This document shows positions 7,017 to 44,772 of a stretch of DNA of 64,000 bases, in pieces (the first letter of the stretch is position 1; each line of letters starts with the position of its first letter). This DNA comes from Candidatus Scalindua sp. SCAELEC01 (GTDB lineage Bacteria > Planctomycetota > Brocadiia > Brocadiales > Scalinduaceae): assembly GCA_004282745.1 (NCBI GenBank), contig SHMT01000028.1, positions 1-64,000 on the forward strand. Direction: 5' to 3'. The notes beneath the pieces are model-generated. The model had not been told where the DNA came from. It did no database searches and was given only the letters and a program-made list of their open reading frames with translations. Made by a program: the position numbers and the translations under genes.

Positions 7017-9749
7017 ATGAGTAAAGAAGACTCTCAACAAAAAAAGGACCGTGAACTACGCCATAAAGCGGAAAAATTGTTAACAAACAAGACAATACCA
7101 ATACAGAAGTTATCAACTGAAGAAGTTCTTAAACTGACATATGAGCTTCAAGTTCAACAGATTGAACTGGAAATGCAGAATGAAGAACTTCACAAAATCC
7201 AAGTACAGATTGAAAAATCTCAACAAAAATACGCGAAACTCTATGACTTTGCACCTCTTGGATATTTTACCATTAATGAAAAAGGGTTAATTCTGGAAGT
7301 AAACCAGACAGGGGCTGCAATGCTAGGCTTAGAGCGAAATATTTTAATTCAAAAGCCTCTAAGTAACTTCATTAGCAGGAATAATCAAGATATTTATTAT
7401 CTGCACAGGATGCAAGCTTTTGAAACAAAAAAACGTGAAGTGTGTGAATTAACTATGAAGAAAAAAGATGACTTTCAATTTTTCGCTCGTCTTGAAAGTA
7501 TTGCGGTTCAAAATAGTGAAGGGCCTTTCAAACAACTTTATACAATTATAAGCAACGTCACAAAGTGGAAACAAGCTGAAGAAAAACTTCAAAAATTAAC
7601 TCAAGCCTTAGAGCAGAGTCCGGTATCTGTAGTTATTACTGATACGAAAGGTGATATTGAGTATGTTAACAAAAAATTTACACAGGTAACCGGATATACC
7701 AGTGAAGAAGCCATTGGGCAAAACCCTAGAGTACTGAAATCAGATGATAAGACTTCAGGAGAATACAAAGAGCTCTGGGAAACCATTAGATCCGGTAATG
7801 AATGGAGGGGAGAATTTTCCAATAAAAATAGAGAAGGAAAAATCTATTGGGAATCGGCATCTATTTCTCCGATCAAAAACAGTAATGGTGATATTACCCA
7901 TTTCATTGCCGTAAAAGAAGATATATCCGCCCAAAAACAAATGGAAAAAATTCAAAAACGTTCACACTTTCGCATAAGGGAAATAAATAAGCTGCAACAA
8001 TTCCTGCTTGGTCCCGGCAGACTGGAGGTAAAGCTCAAGAAAATTACGGATAGTGTGGTCGAGTTGTTTGATGCCGATTTCTGTCGTATTTGGGTAATTC
8101 GACCTGGAGACCGTTGTGAATCTGGGTGTATGCATGCTTTGGTGACTGACGGCCCCCATGTCTGCCGGTATCGGGATCGATGCCTGCACCTCTTGTCCAG
8201 TTCCGGGAGATACACGAATAATACTGATAGAAATTTCTACCATCGTATTCCTTTAAGTTGTAACAAGATCGGGATAAAAGTAAATGAGAAGGAACAAAAG
8301 ATTCTGGTAAACGATGTAAAAAGTAACTCACGCATATATGACAAACAATGGGCTTCTAGAATTGGGTTAAGATCATTTGCAGCTTATCAACTAAGTCCCC
8401 AACGAGGTGAAGCTATCGGTGTTATGGCCCTCTTCTCAAAGCAGACCATTTCAGCAGAAGATGATGAATTGCTGGAGATGTTGAGTTACTCAACTTCCCA
8501 AGCTATACAGTCTTCCAGAATAGAAGATTTGCTCAACGATTCAAAGAAGAAACTAGAGTTATTATTTTCTTCAATCCCATATGCAGTAATTGAATTGACA
8601 AGTGATAATAAGATTAATAGATGGAATGATTTTGCGGAGAGAATCTTTGGAATTTCCGCATCCGATATCTTGGGACAGACATTCAGAGAGTCTAACATAC
8701 TGTTGGATATGGACGCTATTACGAAAATACTCGCATTATGTAAAGAGAATGACAACGCAGTGTGGACAGACGACAGCAGATACAAACGCACTGATGGGAG
8801 TGAAGGACTCCTTACTATTACGGTAAATCCGATCAAAAATGAGGAAGATAAACAAACAGGCCAAATCATCCTAATGAAGGATGTTACAGAACACAAACAA
8901 ATGGAGCAACAATTAGCGCAAGCACAAAAGCTGGAATCGATCGGGCAATTGGCTGCCGGTGTTGCCCATGAGATAAATACACCAGCACAGTTCATATCAG
9001 ACAATACGTTCTTTATTCAGGATGCATTTAGCAAGCTATCTCCTCTCTTGAAGAAGTATTCACACTTACTTGAGATGAATAAGGCAGGATCAGTAACTCC
9101 GGAAATGATACGGGAGATGGATGGTGCTGCGAAGGGCGTTAAATTGGACTACCTTACTGAAGAAATCCCTCTAGCGATTAGTGAAGCGCAGGATGGGATA
9201 AAGCGTGTAACAGAAATAGTTAAATCAATGAAAACATTCTCGCATCCTGATGTCAAGGAGAAGGTGTATGTAGATATCAACACGATGATTGAGAGTACAA
9301 TTACGGTATCGAGACACGAGTGGAAGTATGTAGCAGAGGTGGAGACAAACCTTGCTTCTGACCTGCCACCTGCACCCTGTTACCCAGGTGAGTTTAATCA
9401 GGTAATTCTTAACTTGATTGTCAACGCTGCCCATGCCATCGGAGAAGTTTCCGGTAAGGGAAGCGAGGATAAGGGGAAAATTACGATAAGTACGCATTAT
9501 AATGAAGGTAGAGTGGAGGTGCGCATAAGTGACACAGGCACAGGCATTCCTGAAAATAAAAGATCCAGGCTATTTGAACCATTCTTTACAACAAAAGAAG
9601 TAGGCAAGGGAACTGGTCAGGGGTTGGCTATAGCACACGCTGTTATCGTTAAAAAGCATAAGGGAACAATTAGCTTTGAATCAGAAATAGGGAAGGGAAC
9701 AATATTTATTATTGGCTTACCCCTTTCACATCAAATGACACGTAATTAA
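7017..9749 (+). CDS. PAS-PAS-GAF-PAS sensor histidine kinase (copy 2)
   Basis: 910 aa, cytoplasmic, no membrane segment. The N-terminus has an amphipathic helix ('ELQVQQIELEMQNEELHK') typical of multi-PAS kinases. Two PAS domains follow (about 70-185 and 195-310, the second with 'VVITDTKGDIEYVN'), then the Cys-rich GAF domain, another PAS, HisKA ('GVAHEINTP') and HATPase. From the GAF onward it duplicates the kinase at the window start. No receiver is present, so partners are probably the four receivers just upstream. 107 bp separate it from the previous gene. Confidence 0.93.
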   Translation: MSKEDSQQKKDRELRHKAEKLLTNKTIPIQKLSTEEVLKLTYELQVQQIELEMQNEELHKIQVQIEKSQQKYAKLYDFAPLGYFTINEKGLILEVNQTGAAMLGLERNILIQKPLSNFISRNNQDIYYLHRMQAFETKKREVCELTMKKKDDFQFFARLESIAVQNSEGPFKQLYTIISNVTKWKQAEEKLQKLTQALEQSPVSVVITDTKGDIEYVNKKFTQVTGYTSEEAIGQNPRVLKSDDKTSGEYKELWETIRSGNEWRGEFSNKNREGKIYWESASISPIKNSNGDITHFIAVKEDISAQKQMEKIQKRSHFRIREINKLQQFLLGPGRLEVKLKKITDSVVELFDADFCRIWVIRPGDRCESGCMHALVTDGPHVCRYRDRCLHLLSSSGRYTNNTDRNFYHRIPLSCNKIGIKVNEKEQKILVNDVKSNSRIYDKQWASRIGLRSFAAYQLSPQRGEAIGVMALFSKQTISAEDDELLEMLSYSTSQAIQSSRIEDLLNDSKKKLELLFSSIPYAVIELTSDNKINRWNDFAERIFGISASDILGQTFRESNILLDMDAITKILALCKENDNAVWTDDSRYKRTDGSEGLLTITVNPIKNEEDKQTGQIILMKDVTEHKQMEQQLAQAQKLESIGQLAAGVAHEINTPAQFISDNTFFIQDAFSKLSPLLKKYSHLLEMNKAGSVTPEMIREMDGAAKGVKLDYLTEEIPLAISEAQDGIKRVTEIVKSMKTFSHPDVKEKVYVDINTMIESTITVSRHEWKYVAEVETNLASDLPPAPCYPGEFNQVILNLIVNAAHAIGEVSGKGSEDKGKITISTHYNEGRVEVRISDTGTGIPENKRSRLFEPFFTTKEVGKGTGQGLAIAHAVIVKKHKGTISFESEIGKGTIFIIGLPLSHQMTRN
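7985..9722 (+). repeat. Mosaic segmental duplication, copy 2 (partner 126-1860)
   Basis: Direct-repeat partner of 126-1860. The register is +7859 before the divergent patch and +7862 after it, so this copy has one extra codon in the patch (8208-8424). The flanks, including the entire HisKA region, are essentially identical. Confidence 0.9.
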
Positions 9750-9940
9750 ATGTTTGAGAGCAAACGACAATTACCATAAATACGAATAGACAAAAGCTTA
9801 CTATGTATTGCAGGGCTGTGCAGATGTTTAGAACCCTGCATCTCCTAGGTTAAAAATTTACACAACTTCCTTTACAATATCTACAAAAATATTTATAATC
9901 CATGCTTTAAACTATTAACCTCAACTATGGATCTTAAGCT

Positions 9941-15145: not shown

Positions 15146-15463
15146 TTATTTGATCTTTATACCGGTTTCCAATATCTCTTTTACAAATGGATTATCAGCA
15201 TTGAAATCAATGGGTGCAAAAGGGAAAACCTCGATTTCGCTACTTATATACAACGTAATTTTTCTTATTTTATCCTTATCATCAATCAGGTTGCCTCTAA
15301 ATATGTCGGATACTAAAGCAATATCTATATCACTCCATTCCTGGTAATTCCCTTTTGCATAGCTGCCAAAAAGGATTGCTTCTTTAATTGGAATATCATT
15401 CCTGTTTAATTCTTTGAGATAATTGTCTATAATATCCTTCACTTTAGCAGGGAACTGAACCAT
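15146..15463 (-). CDS. Minimal nucleotidyltransferase (MNT) of a HEPN/MNT pair
   Basis: 105 aa. It carries the nucleotidyltransferase signature GS-x10-D-x-D ('GSYAKGNYQEWSDID'), followed by 'IALVS'. MntA-type antitoxins use this fold to AMPylate and inactivate a HEPN partner. The HEPN gene lies immediately upstream and overlaps by 25 bp, so the two are co-translated. The C-terminus ends inside a sequence shared with the 3' end of the DJ-1 gene at 16185. Confidence 0.85.
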   Translation of the reverse strand: MVQFPAKVKDIIDNYLKELNRNDIPIKEAILFGSYAKGNYQEWSDIDIALVSDIFRGNLIDDKDKIRKITLYISSEIEVFPFAPIDFNADNPFVKEILETGIKIK

Positions 15464-15831
15464 GCGTAAAACTCCTTTATTTTGGTAAGATACTCTTTCG
15501 TGTATTCTGTACTGCAGCGTTTATAAAATTCCAGCTTATAATCGGGATAGCGTATCTGAATATTAAAATCAGTAATTTGGTCTAAAAAAAATTTCTGATT
15601 CTCACCTAATTCTATCCTGGATAATTCTGCCAATCTTACAAGGTTGTGAACCTTTGGAGGCACATTGTTATCATTTTTTTCAACAAATATCGCTTTCAAT
15701 ATCTTTTCTAATGCCAAATGTCCAATAAATAACCACCAATCATATCTTCCAGAATCAAATATGCTTTCGGCAGACTCAAGGTCGTGTTGAGCGCTTTCAA
15801 GCCAGTATTTAATGTGTTCCTCTTTTGTCAT
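15439..15831 (-). CDS. HEPN-domain protein, partner of MNT
   Basis: 130 aa, all-helical. Features of the HEPN family: 'WLESAQHDLESAESIF', 'GHLALEKILKAIFV', 'VHNLVRLAE' and 'FNIQIRYPDYK'. The toxic RNase subgroup carries R-x4-6-H; I do not see that motif, so this member may be nucleotide-binding rather than a ribonuclease, or the pair may be inactive as a toxin. First gene of the pair, overlapping the MNT gene. Confidence 0.82.
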   Translation of the reverse strand: MTKEEHIKYWLESAQHDLESAESIFDSGRYDWWLFIGHLALEKILKAIFVEKNDNNVPPKVHNLVRLAELSRIELGENQKFFLDQITDFNIQIRYPDYKLEFYKRCSTEYTKEYLTKIKEFYAWFSSLLK

Positions 15832-17221: not shown

Positions 17222-17287
17222 ATGCATGAAAACGAGATATCAGAGAAGATAAGAAATCGAGAAAAGTATAATATTTTAAAAGAGTAA
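17222..17287 (+). pseudogene. GxxExxY-family N-terminal fragment
   Basis: A 21-codon frame starting 'MHENEISEKI' resembles the N-terminus of GxxExxY proteins (short helical proteins of unknown function), then loses the family pattern and stops. It lies 7 bp before a second remnant of the same family. Confidence 0.4.
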
Positions 17288-17294
17288 TCGCACA

Positions 17295-17499
17295 ATGACA
17301 CAGAGCCACAGAGAAATGATTTCTGTCTACCGTCCTGACAGGACAGGCAGGATTGAAAATGAGATTGGGAAAGTTATAGTTGCTACTGCAATTGAAGTTC
17401 ATAAAACCTCTTGATTTTGGACTTTTCGAAATTGTGGATGAAGTAATTTTAACTCATCAGTTAAAGAAACACAGTTTAGAATCTTGGATGTATGGCTAA
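17295..17499 (+). pseudogene. GxxExxY-family protein, frameshifted
   Basis: The frame from ATG 17295 starts 'MTQSHREM' and continues 'ENEIGKVIVATAIEVHKT', the family N-terminus, then ends at TGA 17412. From 17407 the neighbouring frame continues the family pattern: 'PLDFGLFEIVDEVILTHQLK'. A single-base indel near 17405 would restore one product, so this is a broken gene. The Tyr of the GxxExxY motif is replaced by Asp. Confidence 0.6.
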
Positions 17500-17572
17500 T
17501 GGTTAAATTCAATTTTTGTGCCTCAGTGTCTTTGTGTGAGGATGAGTAATTTAAGTAATTCAATGAAAAAGT

Positions 17573-18271
17573 ATGAATAAAAGCGTATTAACGAATCTGA
17601 TTGCCGCCATCATATGCGTGGTGGCTTTTGCAATCCCTGAGTTTCCGGGGAGACATGCGCTCAGTTGCGCAAGTTTGTTCGCGCTGTCTGGCGCCTTAAC
17701 CAACTGGTTGGCTGTACATATGTTGTTTGAGAAGATCCCCTTGCTGTATGGTTCAGGAATTATCGTTCTCAGGTTTGAGCAATTTAAGGCGGGTATTCGT
17801 TCGTTGATTATGGAGAATTTTTTCACCGAAGAGAATTTTGCAAAGGTCTCTGAAGAGGCCTTTCCCCACCAGATAGATCCGGAGCTCGTAATGGAAAAGA
17901 TAGATTTTGATAAGATGTTTGATGGCTATGTATCAGTAATTACGACATCCTCCTTTGGGGCAATGTTGAATATGGTTGGTGGTGCTCAAGTCATTGAACC
18001 TCTGAGGGAAACATTCAAAGAGGAGTCTCAGAGGCAGGTATCCGAGGTTATTCAGAACATTGACATATCGTCAGTCCTGCAGAGAGAGACAGATTTTGAA
18101 TCCTTTAAGTCAAAGATCGGTAATATGGTAGATGCCCGTTTGAATGAACTTACCCCACACCATGTAAAAGAGATCATAGAAGAGATGATCCGCCAACACC
18201 TTGGTTGGTTGGTTGTTTGGGGGGGAGTCTTTGGGGCTCTGATCGGTTTTTTCAGCACCCTATTGCTCTGA
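17573..18271 (+). CDS. DUF445 family membrane protein
   Basis: 232 aa. There is an N-terminal hydrophobic segment ('LIAAIICVVAFAI'), the DUF445 core 'GALTNWLAVHMLFEKIP', a helical middle and a C-terminal membrane segment ('VVWGGVFGALIGFFSTLLL'). The function of the family is unknown. It stands alone, with a decayed repeat region upstream and family B hairpin B1 downstream. Confidence 0.82.
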   Translation: MNKSVLTNLIAAIICVVAFAIPEFPGRHALSCASLFALSGALTNWLAVHMLFEKIPLLYGSGIIVLRFEQFKAGIRSLIMENFFTEENFAKVSEEAFPHQIDPELVMEKIDFDKMFDGYVSVITTSSFGAMLNMVGGAQVIEPLRETFKEESQRQVSEVIQNIDISSVLQRETDFESFKSKIGNMVDARLNELTPHHVKEIIEEMIRQHLGWLVVWGGVFGALIGFFSTLLL

Positions 18272-18441
18272 TTTTCAGATTATGGATCCAAGTTCATCTA
18301 CTGGTCAACTGTGTACATTTGGAAAGAAAATTTCGTTTGAGAGTTCATTTCAGGATCCCGATATGTTCGATGACTCAATTGTTTGGGATTTTGGATTTGT
18401 TCGTTATTTGAAACTTGCTTTTTTGTGCTTACACGGAAACC

Positions 18442-18572
18442 TACTGGTTGAATGAAAACTGCCCAGGTACAAGGCGCGTAATGATTTTGTAACCGGAGCG
18501 TACTTCAAGTACGTGAGGATTACGGAATCATTACAGCAACGAAGTAGATGGGTAGTTTTCATTCAACCAGTA
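18442..18572. repeat. Family B hairpin repeat B1
   Basis: Left arm 18442-18465 and right arm 18549-18572 pair over 24 bp with one G-T wobble. The inner part forms a second stem (GTAATGATT / AATCATTAC) and a terminal CGTACT-TCA-AGTACG hairpin. The right arm contains the stop codon of the minus-strand gene at 18559. Same family as 19577, 34791, 39278 and 41613. Confidence 0.85.
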
Positions 18573-19512
18573 AGCTGTTGTGCTCAATCTCTTCAAGCAA
18601 CTCAAGTATCCGTTTACCGATATCGGTGTGAGGGGCGACATCGGCGGCTTTTTCAAGGTTCTTAAGCCAGGCAGCATCGTCTTTTTTCCCCTCCTGGTAG
18701 AGCTCGGCCATTTTAAGGTAGATGGTTTGGACAATCTCAGGCACGGGTTTGGAAGTCTCGATGAGCATTTCCAGTTTCTTGATGGCTTTATCATATTCCT
18801 CTAAGAGGTTGTGATCAAGATTGCTCATGATGTCTGATAGACGATCGGAGCTTTCGTACTGGACCTTCTGTACCGCATAGTTGGCTTTAAGGCCTGCTGC
18901 GTTGTCTGTGTCGTATGCGATGATCTTGTCGATAATGTCGGTATACTCATTGAGACTGTTGATGCCATTACTCTTTAACCAATTAAGTGCTTGGTCGAAA
19001 AGTTTTGCCTGCTCAACTCCCTTTGCATTTTCTGCCTTTTCAAATAGTGCATCTCGCTTTGTCTTTAGGGTGCTGAGTTCTTGAAGGTGTTTGAGGAAAT
19101 TATCGGGGCCTCCCTCCTGGTAACCGGTCCTTGCATATGGACGTCCGCTGGCATCAGTAAGTATAATAGTCGGGAAACCCTCTACCCGGTACCTCTTTTC
19201 CAATCCTCGATTCTGTTTTTTTACTTTTTCAGACTGCTCCTTTCTCCTGGGAAAGTCTATGTCAACGAGTACAAAATGTTTGGGGGCCTCTCTTTTAAAT
19301 GTCTCCTGGCTGAAGACCTCTTTGTGCAACTTGACACACCAGGGACACCAATCTGATCCCGTGAAATGGAGGAGCAAGTCTTTCCCCTCCTTGGTTGCCT
19401 TAATTTTTGCGGCTTCAAAATTATCGGTCCATACGGCATCCGCGGCTAAGGTGACGGTAGTAAAGAAAAGGGTGGCGGCTAAAACAGACATCGTAATAAA
19501 AGTAGTTTTCAT
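18559..19512 (-). CDS. Exported thioredoxin-fold protein with C-terminal helical region
   Basis: 317 aa. The N-terminal signal peptide ends near 'VTLAADAVW'. A thioredoxin-like domain follows with 'CPWC' preceded by 'HFTGSDW', and the cis-Pro loop 'GFPTIILTD'. The C-terminal 170 residues are helical with TPR-like spacing. It is probably a periplasmic thiol-disulfide protein; the partner is unknown. Its last codons and stop lie inside hairpin B1. Confidence 0.85.
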   Translation of the reverse strand: MKTTFITMSVLAATLFFTTVTLAADAVWTDNFEAAKIKATKEGKDLLLHFTGSDWCPWCVKLHKEVFSQETFKREAPKHFVLVDIDFPRRKEQSEKVKKQNRGLEKRYRVEGFPTIILTDASGRPYARTGYQEGGPDNFLKHLQELSTLKTKRDALFEKAENAKGVEQAKLFDQALNWLKSNGINSLNEYTDIIDKIIAYDTDNAAGLKANYAVQKVQYESSDRLSDIMSNLDHNLLEEYDKAIKKLEMLIETSKPVPEIVQTIYLKMAELYQEGKKDDAAWLKNLEKAADVAPHTDIGKRILELLEEIEHNSLLVE

Positions 19513-19576
19513 AATTTATATTTATATAAGTTAAAATATCTAAAATAAGCAATTAATAGCTCTGGAACAGTAATCC

Positions 19577-19692
19577 GGTGATTGAACCAACTGCCCAGAT
19601 ACAAGGCGCGTAAAAATTCCGGAACCGGAGCGTACTTAAGGATTACGGAGTTTTTACAGCAACGCAGTAGATGAGTAGTTGGTTCGATCACC
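19577..19692. repeat. Family B hairpin repeat B2
   Basis: Arms 19577-19597 and 19672-19692 pair over 21 bp with two wobbles and one mismatch. The inner stem is GTAAAAATTCCG / CGGAGTTTTTAC. It begins 6 bp after the stop of the minus-strand reductase gene at 19698. The loop-side sequence CAAGGCGCGTAA and CAGCAACGCAGTAGATG is shared with the other copies, while the stem sequence is not. Confidence 0.85.
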
Positions 19693-19697
19693 ATTCA

Positions 19698-20582
19698 TCA
19701 TACGACATAATTCCCATGATTCAAGTTTTTTATCTCTTCTCTTAAGGCTAACGGGGAGTAACCGAGTGCTAAGGCCTTCGAGCTGTCGAGCGAGACATCC
19801 GGAGGTCTTGGTGCGTCCATTACCACATCTTTCTGTTCGCATGGTGATATCCTGGCTCTGCTAAAACCGAATATTTCGACGAGCAGAGTGGCAAAATTAT
19901 ACCGTGAAATGCGTTCCGCTCCGCCGAGGTGTATTAATCCGGTAGCTTTTTCCAGTGATAAAAGAATTCCCTGAACGGCTGTCCGAACACTTATGGGTGT
20001 CCTAAACTCATCGATAAACAGTCGCAACTCTTGACCCGTTCTCATCGCCTGCATCATTGGTTGAATAAAACTCATTGATGCCGTACCCGGGATACCAAAC
20101 AGTGGGGGTATCCGACAGATAGTAACCTTTGGGTACCGTGCCATCATCCCTTTCTCAGCCAACACCTTGTGCTCACCATAGACGTTAACCGGGCAAACTA
20201 AATCTGTTTCCCGGTAAGGGGCACGAAGCCCATCAAATACCAGGTCAGTAGAGGTGAAAGCGCAGGGGAGTGAAAAATCCGCACACAACCCGGCAATAAG
20301 TACTGATGTGTCAACGTTGATTTCTTTTGATTCAGATCGGAGAGTCTGGCAGGTGTTAGGGTCCGTTTGGGCGGCGGTATGTATTACCGCATCCGGTTTT
20401 ATCGTTTGGAAGAGTCTCTTTAGCTCATGGAAATTGGTCAAGTCCGCTGTTAGTATTGTTACTCCATCGATTGTGCAGTGATGGGAAAATACCGTCCCAT
20501 ATACGGTCCACTCCTCTTTTGCCTTATGACAGAGGTGCCACCCCAAAAACCCACTTGCGCCTGTAACGAGCAGTTTTTTCAT
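19698..20582 (-). CDS. RmlD-like sugar-nucleotide reductase (SDR family)
   Basis: 294 aa extended SDR. The NAD(P) loop is 'VTGASGFLGWHL' and the active site 'YGEHKVLAEK' (Y-x3-K). The substrate region resembles dTDP-4-dehydrorhamnose reductase. It is alone here; the exopolysaccharide transferase at 22420 is the closest sugar-polymer gene. RmlD itself is possible, but other dTDP-sugar reductases fit equally. Confidence 0.8.
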   Translation of the reverse strand: MKKLLVTGASGFLGWHLCHKAKEEWTVYGTVFSHHCTIDGVTILTADLTNFHELKRLFQTIKPDAVIHTAAQTDPNTCQTLRSESKEINVDTSVLIAGLCADFSLPCAFTSTDLVFDGLRAPYRETDLVCPVNVYGEHKVLAEKGMMARYPKVTICRIPPLFGIPGTASMSFIQPMMQAMRTGQELRLFIDEFRTPISVRTAVQGILLSLEKATGLIHLGGAERISRYNFATLLVEIFGFSRARISPCEQKDVVMDAPRPPDVSLDSSKALALGYSPLALREEIKNLNHGNYVV

Positions 20583-20603
20583 CTTTTCTTTTATACCAAA
20601 TCC

Positions 20604-20632
20604 TTGACACTCAAAATCCTTTTCCCTATAAT
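20604..20632 (+). promoter_or_regulatory. Exact-consensus sigma-70 promoter
   Basis: TTGACA (20604-20609), a 17-bp spacer, then TATAAT (20627-20632): a perfect match with optimal spacing. Transcription would start near 20640 on the plus strand and run through the family C element into the GGDEF gene at 20970. Nothing else on this strand lies downstream before that gene. Confidence 0.75.
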
Positions 20633-31827: not shown

Positions 31828-31911
31828 TGCCGAAGCGGGGATTCGAACCCCGACATCCTTGCGGACATTAGGTCCTGAACCTAACGCGTCTGCCAATTCC
31901 GCCACTTCGGC
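31828..31911 (-). tRNA. tRNA-Leu (anticodon CAG)
   Basis: On the minus strand an 84-nt cloverleaf: acceptor GCCGAAG / CTTCGGC with discriminator A, a D-loop with GGCAGAC, anticodon stem TTAGG / CCTAA with loop TTCAGGA, a long variable arm TGTCCGCAAGGATG and T-arm GGGGTTCGAATCCCC. The anticodon CAG reads CUG. CCA is not encoded. Confidence 0.96.
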
Positions 31912-32468: not shown

Positions 32469-32489
32469 TGGATATTGAGCGATTTTAGG

Positions 32490-32844
32490 GGGGCGAAAGG
32501 TTTCGACCGAGTAGTGAGAAGCGAGGGTTGCACTCTGAGGTTGTCCAGGAGGCCTCATAAAACACCTGGCAAAAACTAAATGCTGATAATGATTTAGCAT
32601 TGGCTGCGTAAAACCAGCCACATCCTCCCAATCTTACCTGCGGGGTTGGAAAGGGTGACAAATAGCAGGTTAGCTTTACCTTTTTGCTCAACGAAGGTTA
32701 AGCGAACTTTTTGTTTGAGATAGTTGAATTAAGAGCCTGTCTGTCGGCGCTTAATTTGGCGAAAACTAAATAGAGAGACTATGTGTGTAGACGCCTTCGC
32801 CGAAATGCTTTGGGACGCGGGTTCGATTCCCGCCGCCTCCACCA
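32490..32844 (+). ncRNA. ssrA: Transfer-messenger RNA
   Basis: 355 nt. The 5' end GGGGGCGAAAGGTTTCGACC pairs with the 3' end CGCCTCC-ACCA (CCA encoded), and the T-arm is GCGGGTTCGATTCCCGC. The reading frame ending in ALAA then TAA (32609-32611) gives a probable tag A-DNDLALAA starting at GCT 32582. The resume codon is inferred. Pseudoknot-like pairings fill 32620-32780. Confidence 0.96.
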
Positions 32845-42185: not shown

Positions 42186-43622
42186 TCAATCGGCTTTCTC
42201 AGCCTTCAGCTGCTCCAGTATAGAGGGCAGATACTTGAGGAGGTAATTTATATCTTCCTTGGTATTGGGGAGTCCAAAACTAAACCGTATAATTCCATAA
42301 TGATCGGTATCCACACCGAGTGCCTTAATTACGTATGACGCCTCTTTGCTTCCCGCACTGCAAGCAGATCCGGCAGACACATATATGCCGATCTGGTTCA
42401 GGCTGAGCAGGAGTGACCCGCTGTCAATATTTGGGAACCCTATGTTGAGGTTGTTAGCGGTTCGTTGCTCCAGAGAACCGTTGATGATAACGCCCGGTTC
42501 AATTTTTTGTAGACCTTCTAAAAAGTAATCCCTTAATTCAAGCAGACGTTTGTTTTCTTTTTCCATTTCAGAATAAGCCAGTTTAGCAGCTAGTCCAAAA
42601 GCCATAATTGATCCCACGTTTTCTGTACCGGACCGTAATCCGGACTCTTGTCCTCCTCCATGAATTAATGATTCCAAGGAGATATCTTTATTGACATATA
42701 AGGCCGCAACACCCTTTGGAGCATAAATTTTGTGTCCGGACATGGAGAGCAAAGAGATTCCCATCTCTGTTGGCTTCAGCTTAATTTTACAGAATCCCTG
42801 TATTCCGTCGACCATAAAGGGTACATTTGCTTTCTTACAGACTTCCCCAATTTCACTAATAGGATTTATTGCTCCAATCTCATTATTTACGGCCATAAGA
42901 GAAACGAGGAGGGTATCTTCAGACAAACTCTCCTTTACAGAATTAACGTCGATGAGCCCATTCTTTTCGATATCTAAATAGGTCACTCGGAAACCCAATT
43001 TCTCTAAGTACTGTAAGGTCTTAAGTACGGAAGGGTGTTCTACCTTACTGCTGATAATGTGTCCTCTGTTTTCTAGATGCTGAAAGGCTATTCCCTTAAT
43101 GGCCATATTGTTGGCCTCCGAACCGCTCCCGGTAAAAAATATTTCGTTCGATTTTACTTTCAAGCAATCGGAAATTTGGGAGCGAGCGTTTTGAAGTGTA
43201 TCATACGCTATTTTACCAGGATTTGTGCTGCTGCTTGGATTTCCAAAACCAAAAGAACCTTGATAATAGCTTATCAGCGTCTCTTTTACTTCATCTCGAA
43301 TATAGCTTGTCGCATTATGATCGAAATAGACTTCCCGATAGTCATCAACATCTACCATGGCCATAGGTTTACAAATTTCTCTTCCCGTTTGAATGGGAAT
43401 GCCTACCCAGGTATAGACAGACGTGAGGCCATGGGGAAACAAGTCCTCAATTTCATCTCTGGATGCCCCGGTGTTTTTCTTTAAGTTAAGATAGAGAGGC
43501 CCCACTCGATTTTTTTCATAATAGGTATGGGCAAACTCAAGGATGTCCATATGCTTCTGGGTCAAAGGGGTTTGGGTGACCCTGGACATCCGGTTTATGA
43601 GGGTTTTTACAAGGTTATTCAT
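42186..43622 (-). CDS. DsrC/TusE-like domain fused to a NifS/IscS cysteine desulfurase
   Basis: 478 aa. Residues about 18-86 resemble DsrC/TusE ('LTQKHMDILEFAHTYY', 'LFPHGLTSV', then 'GIPIQTGREIC' matching the family's G-x-P-x-x-TG-C arm, with Cys84 at the sulfur-carrying position). Residues 98-470 are a cysteine desulfurase: 'YFDHNATSYIRDEV', PLP Lys298 in 'SMSGHKIYAPKG', and catalytic Cys421 in 'SAGSACSAGS'. Family knowledge: desulfurases make persulfide and TusE/DsrC carry it. The fusion suggests sulfur is passed within one protein. Last of four same-strand genes that begin with a molybdopterin oxidoreductase. Confidence 0.82.
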   Translation of the reverse strand: MNNLVKTLINRMSRVTQTPLTQKHMDILEFAHTYYEKNRVGPLYLNLKKNTGASRDEIEDLFPHGLTSVYTWVGIPIQTGREICKPMAMVDVDDYREVYFDHNATSYIRDEVKETLISYYQGSFGFGNPSSSTNPGKIAYDTLQNARSQISDCLKVKSNEIFFTGSGSEANNMAIKGIAFQHLENRGHIISSKVEHPSVLKTLQYLEKLGFRVTYLDIEKNGLIDVNSVKESLSEDTLLVSLMAVNNEIGAINPISEIGEVCKKANVPFMVDGIQGFCKIKLKPTEMGISLLSMSGHKIYAPKGVAALYVNKDISLESLIHGGGQESGLRSGTENVGSIMAFGLAAKLAYSEMEKENKRLLELRDYFLEGLQKIEPGVIINGSLEQRTANNLNIGFPNIDSGSLLLSLNQIGIYVSAGSACSAGSKEASYVIKALGVDTDHYGIIRFSFGLPNTKEDINYLLKYLPSILEQLKAEKAD

Positions 43623-43905
43623 AAAAAAGGTCCAAAAATGATAAAAGGACCACGTACAAAATTTTGGGTCCTCTATTGTAGTATTTTAGAAATATTTCCA
43701 CCAATTAAAACAATTGGCGAACTAAAAGTGTTTGTTGGATACTATACATGTGAAAAATTGCAAATCTCAAATCATAAAATACAAACAAATAACAATTTCC
43801 AATGTTCGTCTAACTTTCAATAAACAGGAATGATTCAAAACCAGTTCGTTTCGAATTTATGTGTTATTTGGGTTTTGTTATGTGTTGCTTATCCGCCAGA
43901 CCAAG

Positions 43906-44772
43906 TCATCCGGTAACTCCTGGATAGAGGTGGAAGGGAAAGCCTGTCTTTGAATCTTCCATTCCCTTTACGGTCTCCTCAAAGAGACGAAAGGGTATGC
44001 CCATACCCAATCGATCAGCTTCAAATTCGGCTATGAGTCTTGCGCCCAGGCAATATGGCGCAATATTGATCTCTTGAGTCAGATAGGGGCGGACGATAAG
44101 GTCGGAGTTAACGACCCTCAACCCACCCATACTTGCTGTTACGCGTTTTCCCGTATTGAATTGATATGCCTGGATGATCCTCGTTAATTCTGCTGAGCGA
44201 ATGTTTAAGACTACTACGTCTGGTATCAAATCAAGGTCATCAAAATCTATCGAATAAAAAAAGACACCCTGCATTGTTGGTGGTTGGATGGCGACCATGT
44301 CTGCAATAGCTTTTTTGGCAGTTTCCACATCTTTAAAACGGCCGACGTCATCCTTGCCAAAAAGAGCAAAATCCATACGGTCTGCAGCTTTACAGGCATA
44401 AACGGTGCCAGAGGTAAAATCCTTTGGAGTAGGAGGCTTGAAATCACTGCCTAATCCGGATTGATCGCGCATAATATCTGTGTACACTCTTGATTCACCT
44501 AGCGGCTCTGTCTGATTCTGATCCACTAAGCCAAAGGTTATGGCGGCGGCTACGCAGCCAATGTTATCGTAAGTTAAAAGTGCGGCATCACCTAAAGCAG
44601 CCTGTTTTGTAGCTTGACAACTGGTTAACGATATAGCTGGTTGATTCATTTTTATCGGTTCGGGTATCTCATCCTCTTTTTTAAAAAATTTGACAGCCGT
44701 CATTGGAATTTCAAAATTCTCAACTCCCATTGCATCTATCATGCTGGAATATAGCTGTTTTATCTTTGTCAT
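43906..44772 (-). CDS. DUF169 family protein
   Basis: 288 aa. The DUF169 pattern is visible in 'MTAVKFFKKEDEIPEP', 'TSCQATKQAALGDAALLTYD' and 'NIGCVAAAITFG'. The conserved Cys residues could bind a metal or cluster, but no function is established. It lies 125 bp downstream of the hybrid kinase and 283 bp upstream of the desulfurase fusion, same strand. Confidence 0.75.
   Translation of the reverse strand: MTKIKQLYSSMIDAMGVENFEIPMTAVKFFKKEDEIPEPIKMNQPAISLTSCQATKQAALGDAALLTYDNIGCVAAAITFGLVDQNQTEPLGESRVYTDIMRDQSGLGSDFKPPTPKDFTSGTVYACKAADRMDFALFGKDDVGRFKDVETAKKAIADMVAIQPPTMQGVFFYSIDFDDLDLIPDVVVLNIRSAELTRIIQAYQFNTGKRVTASMGGLRVVNSDLIVRPYLTQEINIAPYCLGARLIAEFEADRLGMGIPFRLFEETVKGMEDSKTGFPFHLYPGVTG

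Follow-up and report, generated by a model that had tools for sequence, protein, structure and literature searches.

Sulfur relays are as a rule made up of separate proteins that must meet one another, and it is still debated how IscS picks the correct acceptor. In Escherichia coli the Tus relay runs from IscS through TusA, TusBCD and TusE to MnmA. The 64,000-nucleotide stretch of Candidatus Scalindua sp. SCAELEC01 analysed here (contig SHMT01000028.1, hereafter the window) contains an open reading frame that seems to join two ends of such a relay, which raises the question whether the fusion is genuine and, if so, which protein it would supply with sulfur. The reading frame occupies positions 42186..43622 on the minus strand, running from an ATG at 43622 to a stop codon at 42186, and encodes 478 amino acids with no internal stop. 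A first-pass annotation had placed a DsrC/TusE-like sulfur carrier and a cysteine desulfurase in this one polypeptide, with Cys84 and Cys421 as the sulfur-bearing residues. The coordinates were right, both cysteines are present at these residue numbers, and Pfam and NCBI models together with homologous sequences confirmed both domain assignments: a DsrC-fold domain is followed by a complete desulfurase of the IscS/NifS type.

The desulfurase part covers residues 97-474 (42201..43334, minus strand) and is a full-length class-V enzyme of the NifS-IscS group, scoring 238.5 bits with Pfam Aminotran_5 and 413 bits with the NifS model. Alignment to E. coli IscS starts at IscS residue 5 and pairs His196 with His104, Lys298 (codon 42729..42731, minus strand) with Lys206 and Cys421 (codon 42360..42362, minus strand) with Cys328, which in IscS are the active-site histidine, the PLP lysine and the catalytic cysteine. 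The three residues are invariant in all 13 fusions described below, and the PLP lysine, active-site histidine and catalytic Cys loop expected of a group I desulfurase are all there. Unlike the IscS and NifS proteins of this group, the fusion forms a long-stemmed clade of its own, carries a carrier-like domain at its N-terminus and scores below every equivalog cut-off in the family (IscS, 365 against 643 bits; NifS, 413 against 531; DndA, 334 against 480). Judged by these models and alignments, the C-terminal domain is a cysteine desulfurase outside the named subtypes IscS, NifS and DndA. High PADLOC scores for SspA (428 bits) and DndA (422 bits) might suggest a desulfurase for DNA phosphorothioation, of the DndA/SspA type, but those models match cysteine desulfurases generally, the NCBI DndA score of 333.7 bits stays well below 480, and neither the neighbourhood of the fusion in the window nor the surroundings of loci L009-L013 contain another recognisable dnd or ssp gene; we regard such a function as hardly credible.

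The N-terminal domain, residues 1-95 (43338..43622, minus strand), is more divergent. Its score with Pfam PF04358 is 23.6 bits within the whole protein and 27.1 bits for the domain alone, at a cut-off of 24.9, and the N-domains of all six homologues scanned match the same model. A profile built from the six homologues matched DsrC structures in the PDB (2xsj_C, E=3.6e-10). At the sequence level the resemblance to DsrC is weak but real, and it becomes firm once the six-homologue profile is used. An AlphaFold2 model of residues 1-97 reached a pLDDT of 83, and the seven best PDB matches of the N-domain model in Foldseek all belong to the DsrC family, the best being 2v4j_C (TM 0.69, probability 1.00); its E-value is only 9e-4, which is unsurprising for so small a domain. 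Only DsrC proteins matched convincingly, which bears out the likeness to DsrC/TusE claimed in the annotation. The profile also matches other proteins weakly, including one LexA (L102, 24.5 bits). A helix-turn-helix reading of the domain was considered and rejected, as LexA structures overlap the model over 31 columns only, with a TM of 0.31 against 0.69 for DsrC. Three long open frames that looked like further fusions (L093, L095 and L101) were also dismissed; in each, an open stretch that is apparently non-coding ends in an ordinary DsrC.

With the DsrC/TusE/DsvC proteins (PF04358, TIGR03342) the domain shares the fold, the helical core and the order of an FPxG motif, a GxP motif and a Cys-bearing arm. 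Unlike these proteins it is fused to an enzyme, and it starts where the N-terminal segment of DsrC, a beta hairpin of about 34 residues, ends. Cys84 (codon 43371..43373, minus strand) is internal, whereas the corresponding cysteine of DsrC (CysA) is penultimate, and it follows the G of the GIP motif by ten residues, whereas CysA lies seven residues past the G of GxP. At the place of the second DsrC cysteine (CysB) all 13 fusions have a tyrosine, Tyr70. The second cysteine is a feature of organisms with DsrAB, and TusE-type proteins lack it,PMC3397948 as the N-domain does. With the NCBI TusE/DsrC model TIGR03342 the score is 22.8 bits, at a cut-off of 53.5. The domain is best described as a DsrC fold that is TusE-like by its single arm cysteine, not as a formal member of the TusE/DsrC family.

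The annotation had placed Cys84 at the sulfur-carrying site of TusE and DsrC. That part of the claim which puts a conserved cysteine in the arm stands; the exact position does not, given that the residue lies inside the chain, with three residues more between it and GxP. Cys84 itself, on whose conservation the annotation had let its case depend, is invariant in 13 of 13 fusions, as are Lys85 and the GIP motif, and the arm residues around them vary. Segment 81-91 was modelled with low confidence, and the arm that holds Cys84 is probably flexible. Since Cys84 is off the exact CysA position and not penultimate, a carrier role can be proposed for it only by analogy. The displacement by three residues, the missing hairpin and second cysteine, and a score below the family cut-off would also suit a domain that serves as a docking or regulatory module only, with Cys421 delivering sulfur directly to the acceptor and Cys84 forming a redox-sensing disulfide or having a structural role. 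We consider this unlikely, though worth keeping in mind: Cys84 and Lys85 are invariant while adjacent arm residues vary, and the arm is predicted to be flexible, as that of a carrier should be.

A search for the same fusion and its neighbours yielded 13 copies from five phyla (Planctomycetota, Desulfobacterota, Nitrospirota, SAR324 and Gammaproteobacteria) and one constant neighbour, a gene for a DUF169 protein, which the annotation had overlooked. The carriers are 7 of 62 Brocadiales, 3 of 395 Desulfobacterota and 1 of 396 Nitrospirota genomes, plus one SAR324 and one gammaproteobacterial genome. The named carriers besides that of the window are all metagenome-assembled, and individual taxon labels could be wrong; they are not one contaminant, because the ten fusion loci compared differ pairwise at 15-52% of residues. 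Phylogenetic analysis placed the 13 desulfurase domains in one clade (support 100/99) on a long stem of 0.52, within which the Brocadiales fusions group together (100/98). As the same fusion recurs in distant phyla at 52-68% identity and its 13 desulfurase domains form a single clade, it is genuine and neither a chance nor an assembly product. The pattern is consistent, as far as sequences tell, with a single origin followed by patchy spread or loss. Viral contigs held no relatives of the fusion or of the DUF169 protein; plasmids gave no match to the N-domain and one distant DUF169 only.

The DUF169/COG2043 protein of the window (288 amino acids, 43906..44772, minus strand) is encoded upstream of the fusion on the same strand and scores 121.3 bits with Pfam DUF169, where the gathering score is 27. 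An AT-rich spacer of 283 bp (43623..43905, minus strand) separates the two genes, and an Rfam scan of it gave no match. In all 11 fusion loci with enough upstream sequence (the window, L009, L010, the partial L011, L012, L013, L090, L091, G354, L133 and L134) the DUF169 gene lies directly upstream and on the strand of the fusion; G398 and G400, the other two carriers, have a contig that ends right at the fusion. The distance varies from an overlap of a few bases (L013, L134) through the 283 bp of the window to about 1.6 kb in G354, where no gene is recognisable in between, and in the copies from outside the Brocadiales the two genes are separated by a short gap or overlap. Besides DUF169, no neighbouring gene was seen in common among the loci compared. 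Among 39 Brocadiales genomes DUF169 occurs in five, every one of them a fusion carrier (Fisher p=3.6e-5 with all seven carriers, 2.3e-6 without the two that end at the fusion), and over ten loci the identities of the two proteins are correlated (r=0.93, Mantel p=1e-4); both tests treat related genomes as independent and are inflated by kinship. The linkage of DUF169 and fusion across phyla stands independently of these statistics.

The DUF169 proteins encoded next to fusions form one clade (99/96), a distinct subclade within the family. Four cysteines, Cys52, Cys73, Cys127 and Cys241, are invariant in them; Cys52, Cys73 and Cys241 are common to many other DUF169 proteins, whereas Cys127 is special to this subclade. 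The family is common without the fusion, with members in 100 of 148 Desulfobacterota genomes, and the majority of its proteins must therefore manage without such a donor. A search of solved structures returned no credible relative of the partner, and a structure model from five sequences was discarded (mean pLDDT 37). In two desulfobacterial loci (L138:739-2169 and L141:742-2160) DUF169 and dephospho-CoA kinase (CoaE) form one fused protein, which hints at a connection of some DUF169 proteins with coenzyme A.

A route for sulfur can be sketched from these elements. The PLP domain of the fusion would strip sulfur from L-cysteine and hold it as a persulfide on Cys421, whose mobile catalytic loop would hand it to Cys84, of the same chain or of the other chain of the dimer, on the probably flexible arm of the DsrC-like domain, beside the linker into the desulfurase. 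The DsrC-like domain would then dock on the upstream-encoded DUF169 protein and pass the sulfur on, either to this protein or to what it binds. The small domain of IscS consists of residues 1-15 and 264-404 and bears the catalytic cysteine, whose mobile loop extends to the acceptors, and IscS-TusA transfer works across the dimer.PMC2854127 In the fusion the junction falls at IscS residue 5, so the putative carrier would be tethered to the small domain of the donor itself. DsrC was loaded from IscS and cysteine in vitro, solely on the penultimate cysteine.PMC3397948 The analysis establishes the domain make-up, the fold, the conserved cysteines and the linkage and parallel divergence of fusion and DUF169; we infer the order of transfer, the place of DUF169 as acceptor and the end product; for the order, the grounds are the geometry of the IscS small domain and the loading of DsrC by IscS. 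That the two genes form a sulfur-delivery cassette in which sulfur moves from L-cysteine via Cys421 and Cys84 to a cysteine of DUF169 seems to us an even call. The fuller proposal, a self-contained and dedicated sulfur-transfer system with desulfurase and DsrC-fold carrier in one chain and DUF169 as the acceptor, is put forward tentatively, as a possibility short of probable.

Like the E. coli Tus relay, this arrangement combines a desulfurase with a DsrC-fold carrier, but here a single chain holds both ends, TusA and TusBCD do not stand between them, and the partner is DUF169. The first-pass annotation had proposed that the fusion short-circuits the relay from IscS through TusA and TusBCD to TusE; the genome comparisons do not support this. 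No DsrC/TusE match to the N-domain profile was found at E 0.001 in 32 non-carrier Brocadiales genomes, so there is no sign in them of a Tus relay to shorten. DsrH/TusB is absent from all five Brocadiales carriers tested (the window genome G000, G322, G345, G354 and G411); among nine carriers overall it is also absent from G408 and is present in G409, G410 and G412. In carriers such as G409 and G412, DsrC and DsrH are encoded separately from the fusion. With no TusE-like match in the non-carrier Brocadiales searched, no TusB in the Brocadiales carriers tested, and DsrC and DsrH encoded apart from the fusion elsewhere, the fusion looks like an accessory system rather than a replacement of the Tus relay. 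A fusion that feeds MnmA for 2-thiouridine formation in tRNA, in place of TusA, TusBCD and TusE, would agree with the functional kinship of TusE to the N-domain and with the window genome, in which no second DsrC/TusE and no DsrH/TusB was found. We nevertheless judge it improbable, since thiolation in the non-carrier Brocadiales is seemingly independent of TusE, other carriers keep their own DsrC and DsrH, and the conserved partner is DUF169 and not MnmA.

A role in dissimilatory sulfur metabolism together with DsrAB, as for DsrC, was also weighed. DsrA scores above the model cut-off in three carriers (G408, G409 and G412), and in L010 dsrC and an operon of the dsrMK type are found at a distance of about 1.8 kb from the fusion and its DUF169 gene. 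In the window genome, G322, G345, G354, the SAR324 genome (G410) and Anammoxibacter (G411), however, no DsrA exceeds the cut-off, and the second DsrC cysteine is missing even in the carriers with DsrAB, which makes this role very improbable. A planctomycete locus, L098 (1480-3032), resembles the fusion in that a gene similar to class-V desulfurases directly adjoins dsrC and dsrMK-like genes, but there the desulfurase and a true DsrC are two separate, unfused genes.

The fusion was not described in the open-access literature searched, and a review of bacterial cysteine desulfurases mentions neither a fusion nor TusE; the combination of fusion and DUF169 gene is apparently undescribed so far, as judged from open-access literature. 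A donor-carrier fusion kept across phyla with both cysteines offers a clean system for studying transfer within a protein, and its constant link to DUF169 gives a starting point for experiments on a widespread family that is functionally uncharacterised. If DUF169 is indeed the acceptor, one branch of this large uncharacterised family would gain its first biochemical role, possibly with a new sulfur-containing cofactor or modification.

A different desulfurase fusion was encountered in the window genome and in a Bacteroidetes bin, where a molybdopterin oxidoreductase of 1130 amino acids ends in a C-terminal cysteine desulfurase; in Ca. Magnetominusculus the two parts read as separate frames that overlap where the sequence has a run of N. 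The loci are contig C47 of the window genome at about 17238-20630 on the minus strand (L165:5239-8631), L018:645-4037 and L019:1249-4745. Here the desulfurase part may supply the Mo cofactor with sulfur from within the same protein.

Elsewhere in the window, positions 121-1904 and 7981-9765 are duplicates of about 1.8 kb with 95% identity that lie inside two sensor-kinase genes and reflect a recent duplication or gene conversion. Adjacent small reading frames at 15146-15831 (minus strand) resemble a nucleotidyltransferase and a HEPN protein and look by eye like an MNT/HEPN toxin-antitoxin pair. A tRNA-Leu(CAG) is encoded at 31828-31911 on the minus strand, and a tmRNA with the tag ADNDLALAA at 32489-32844 on the plus strand.
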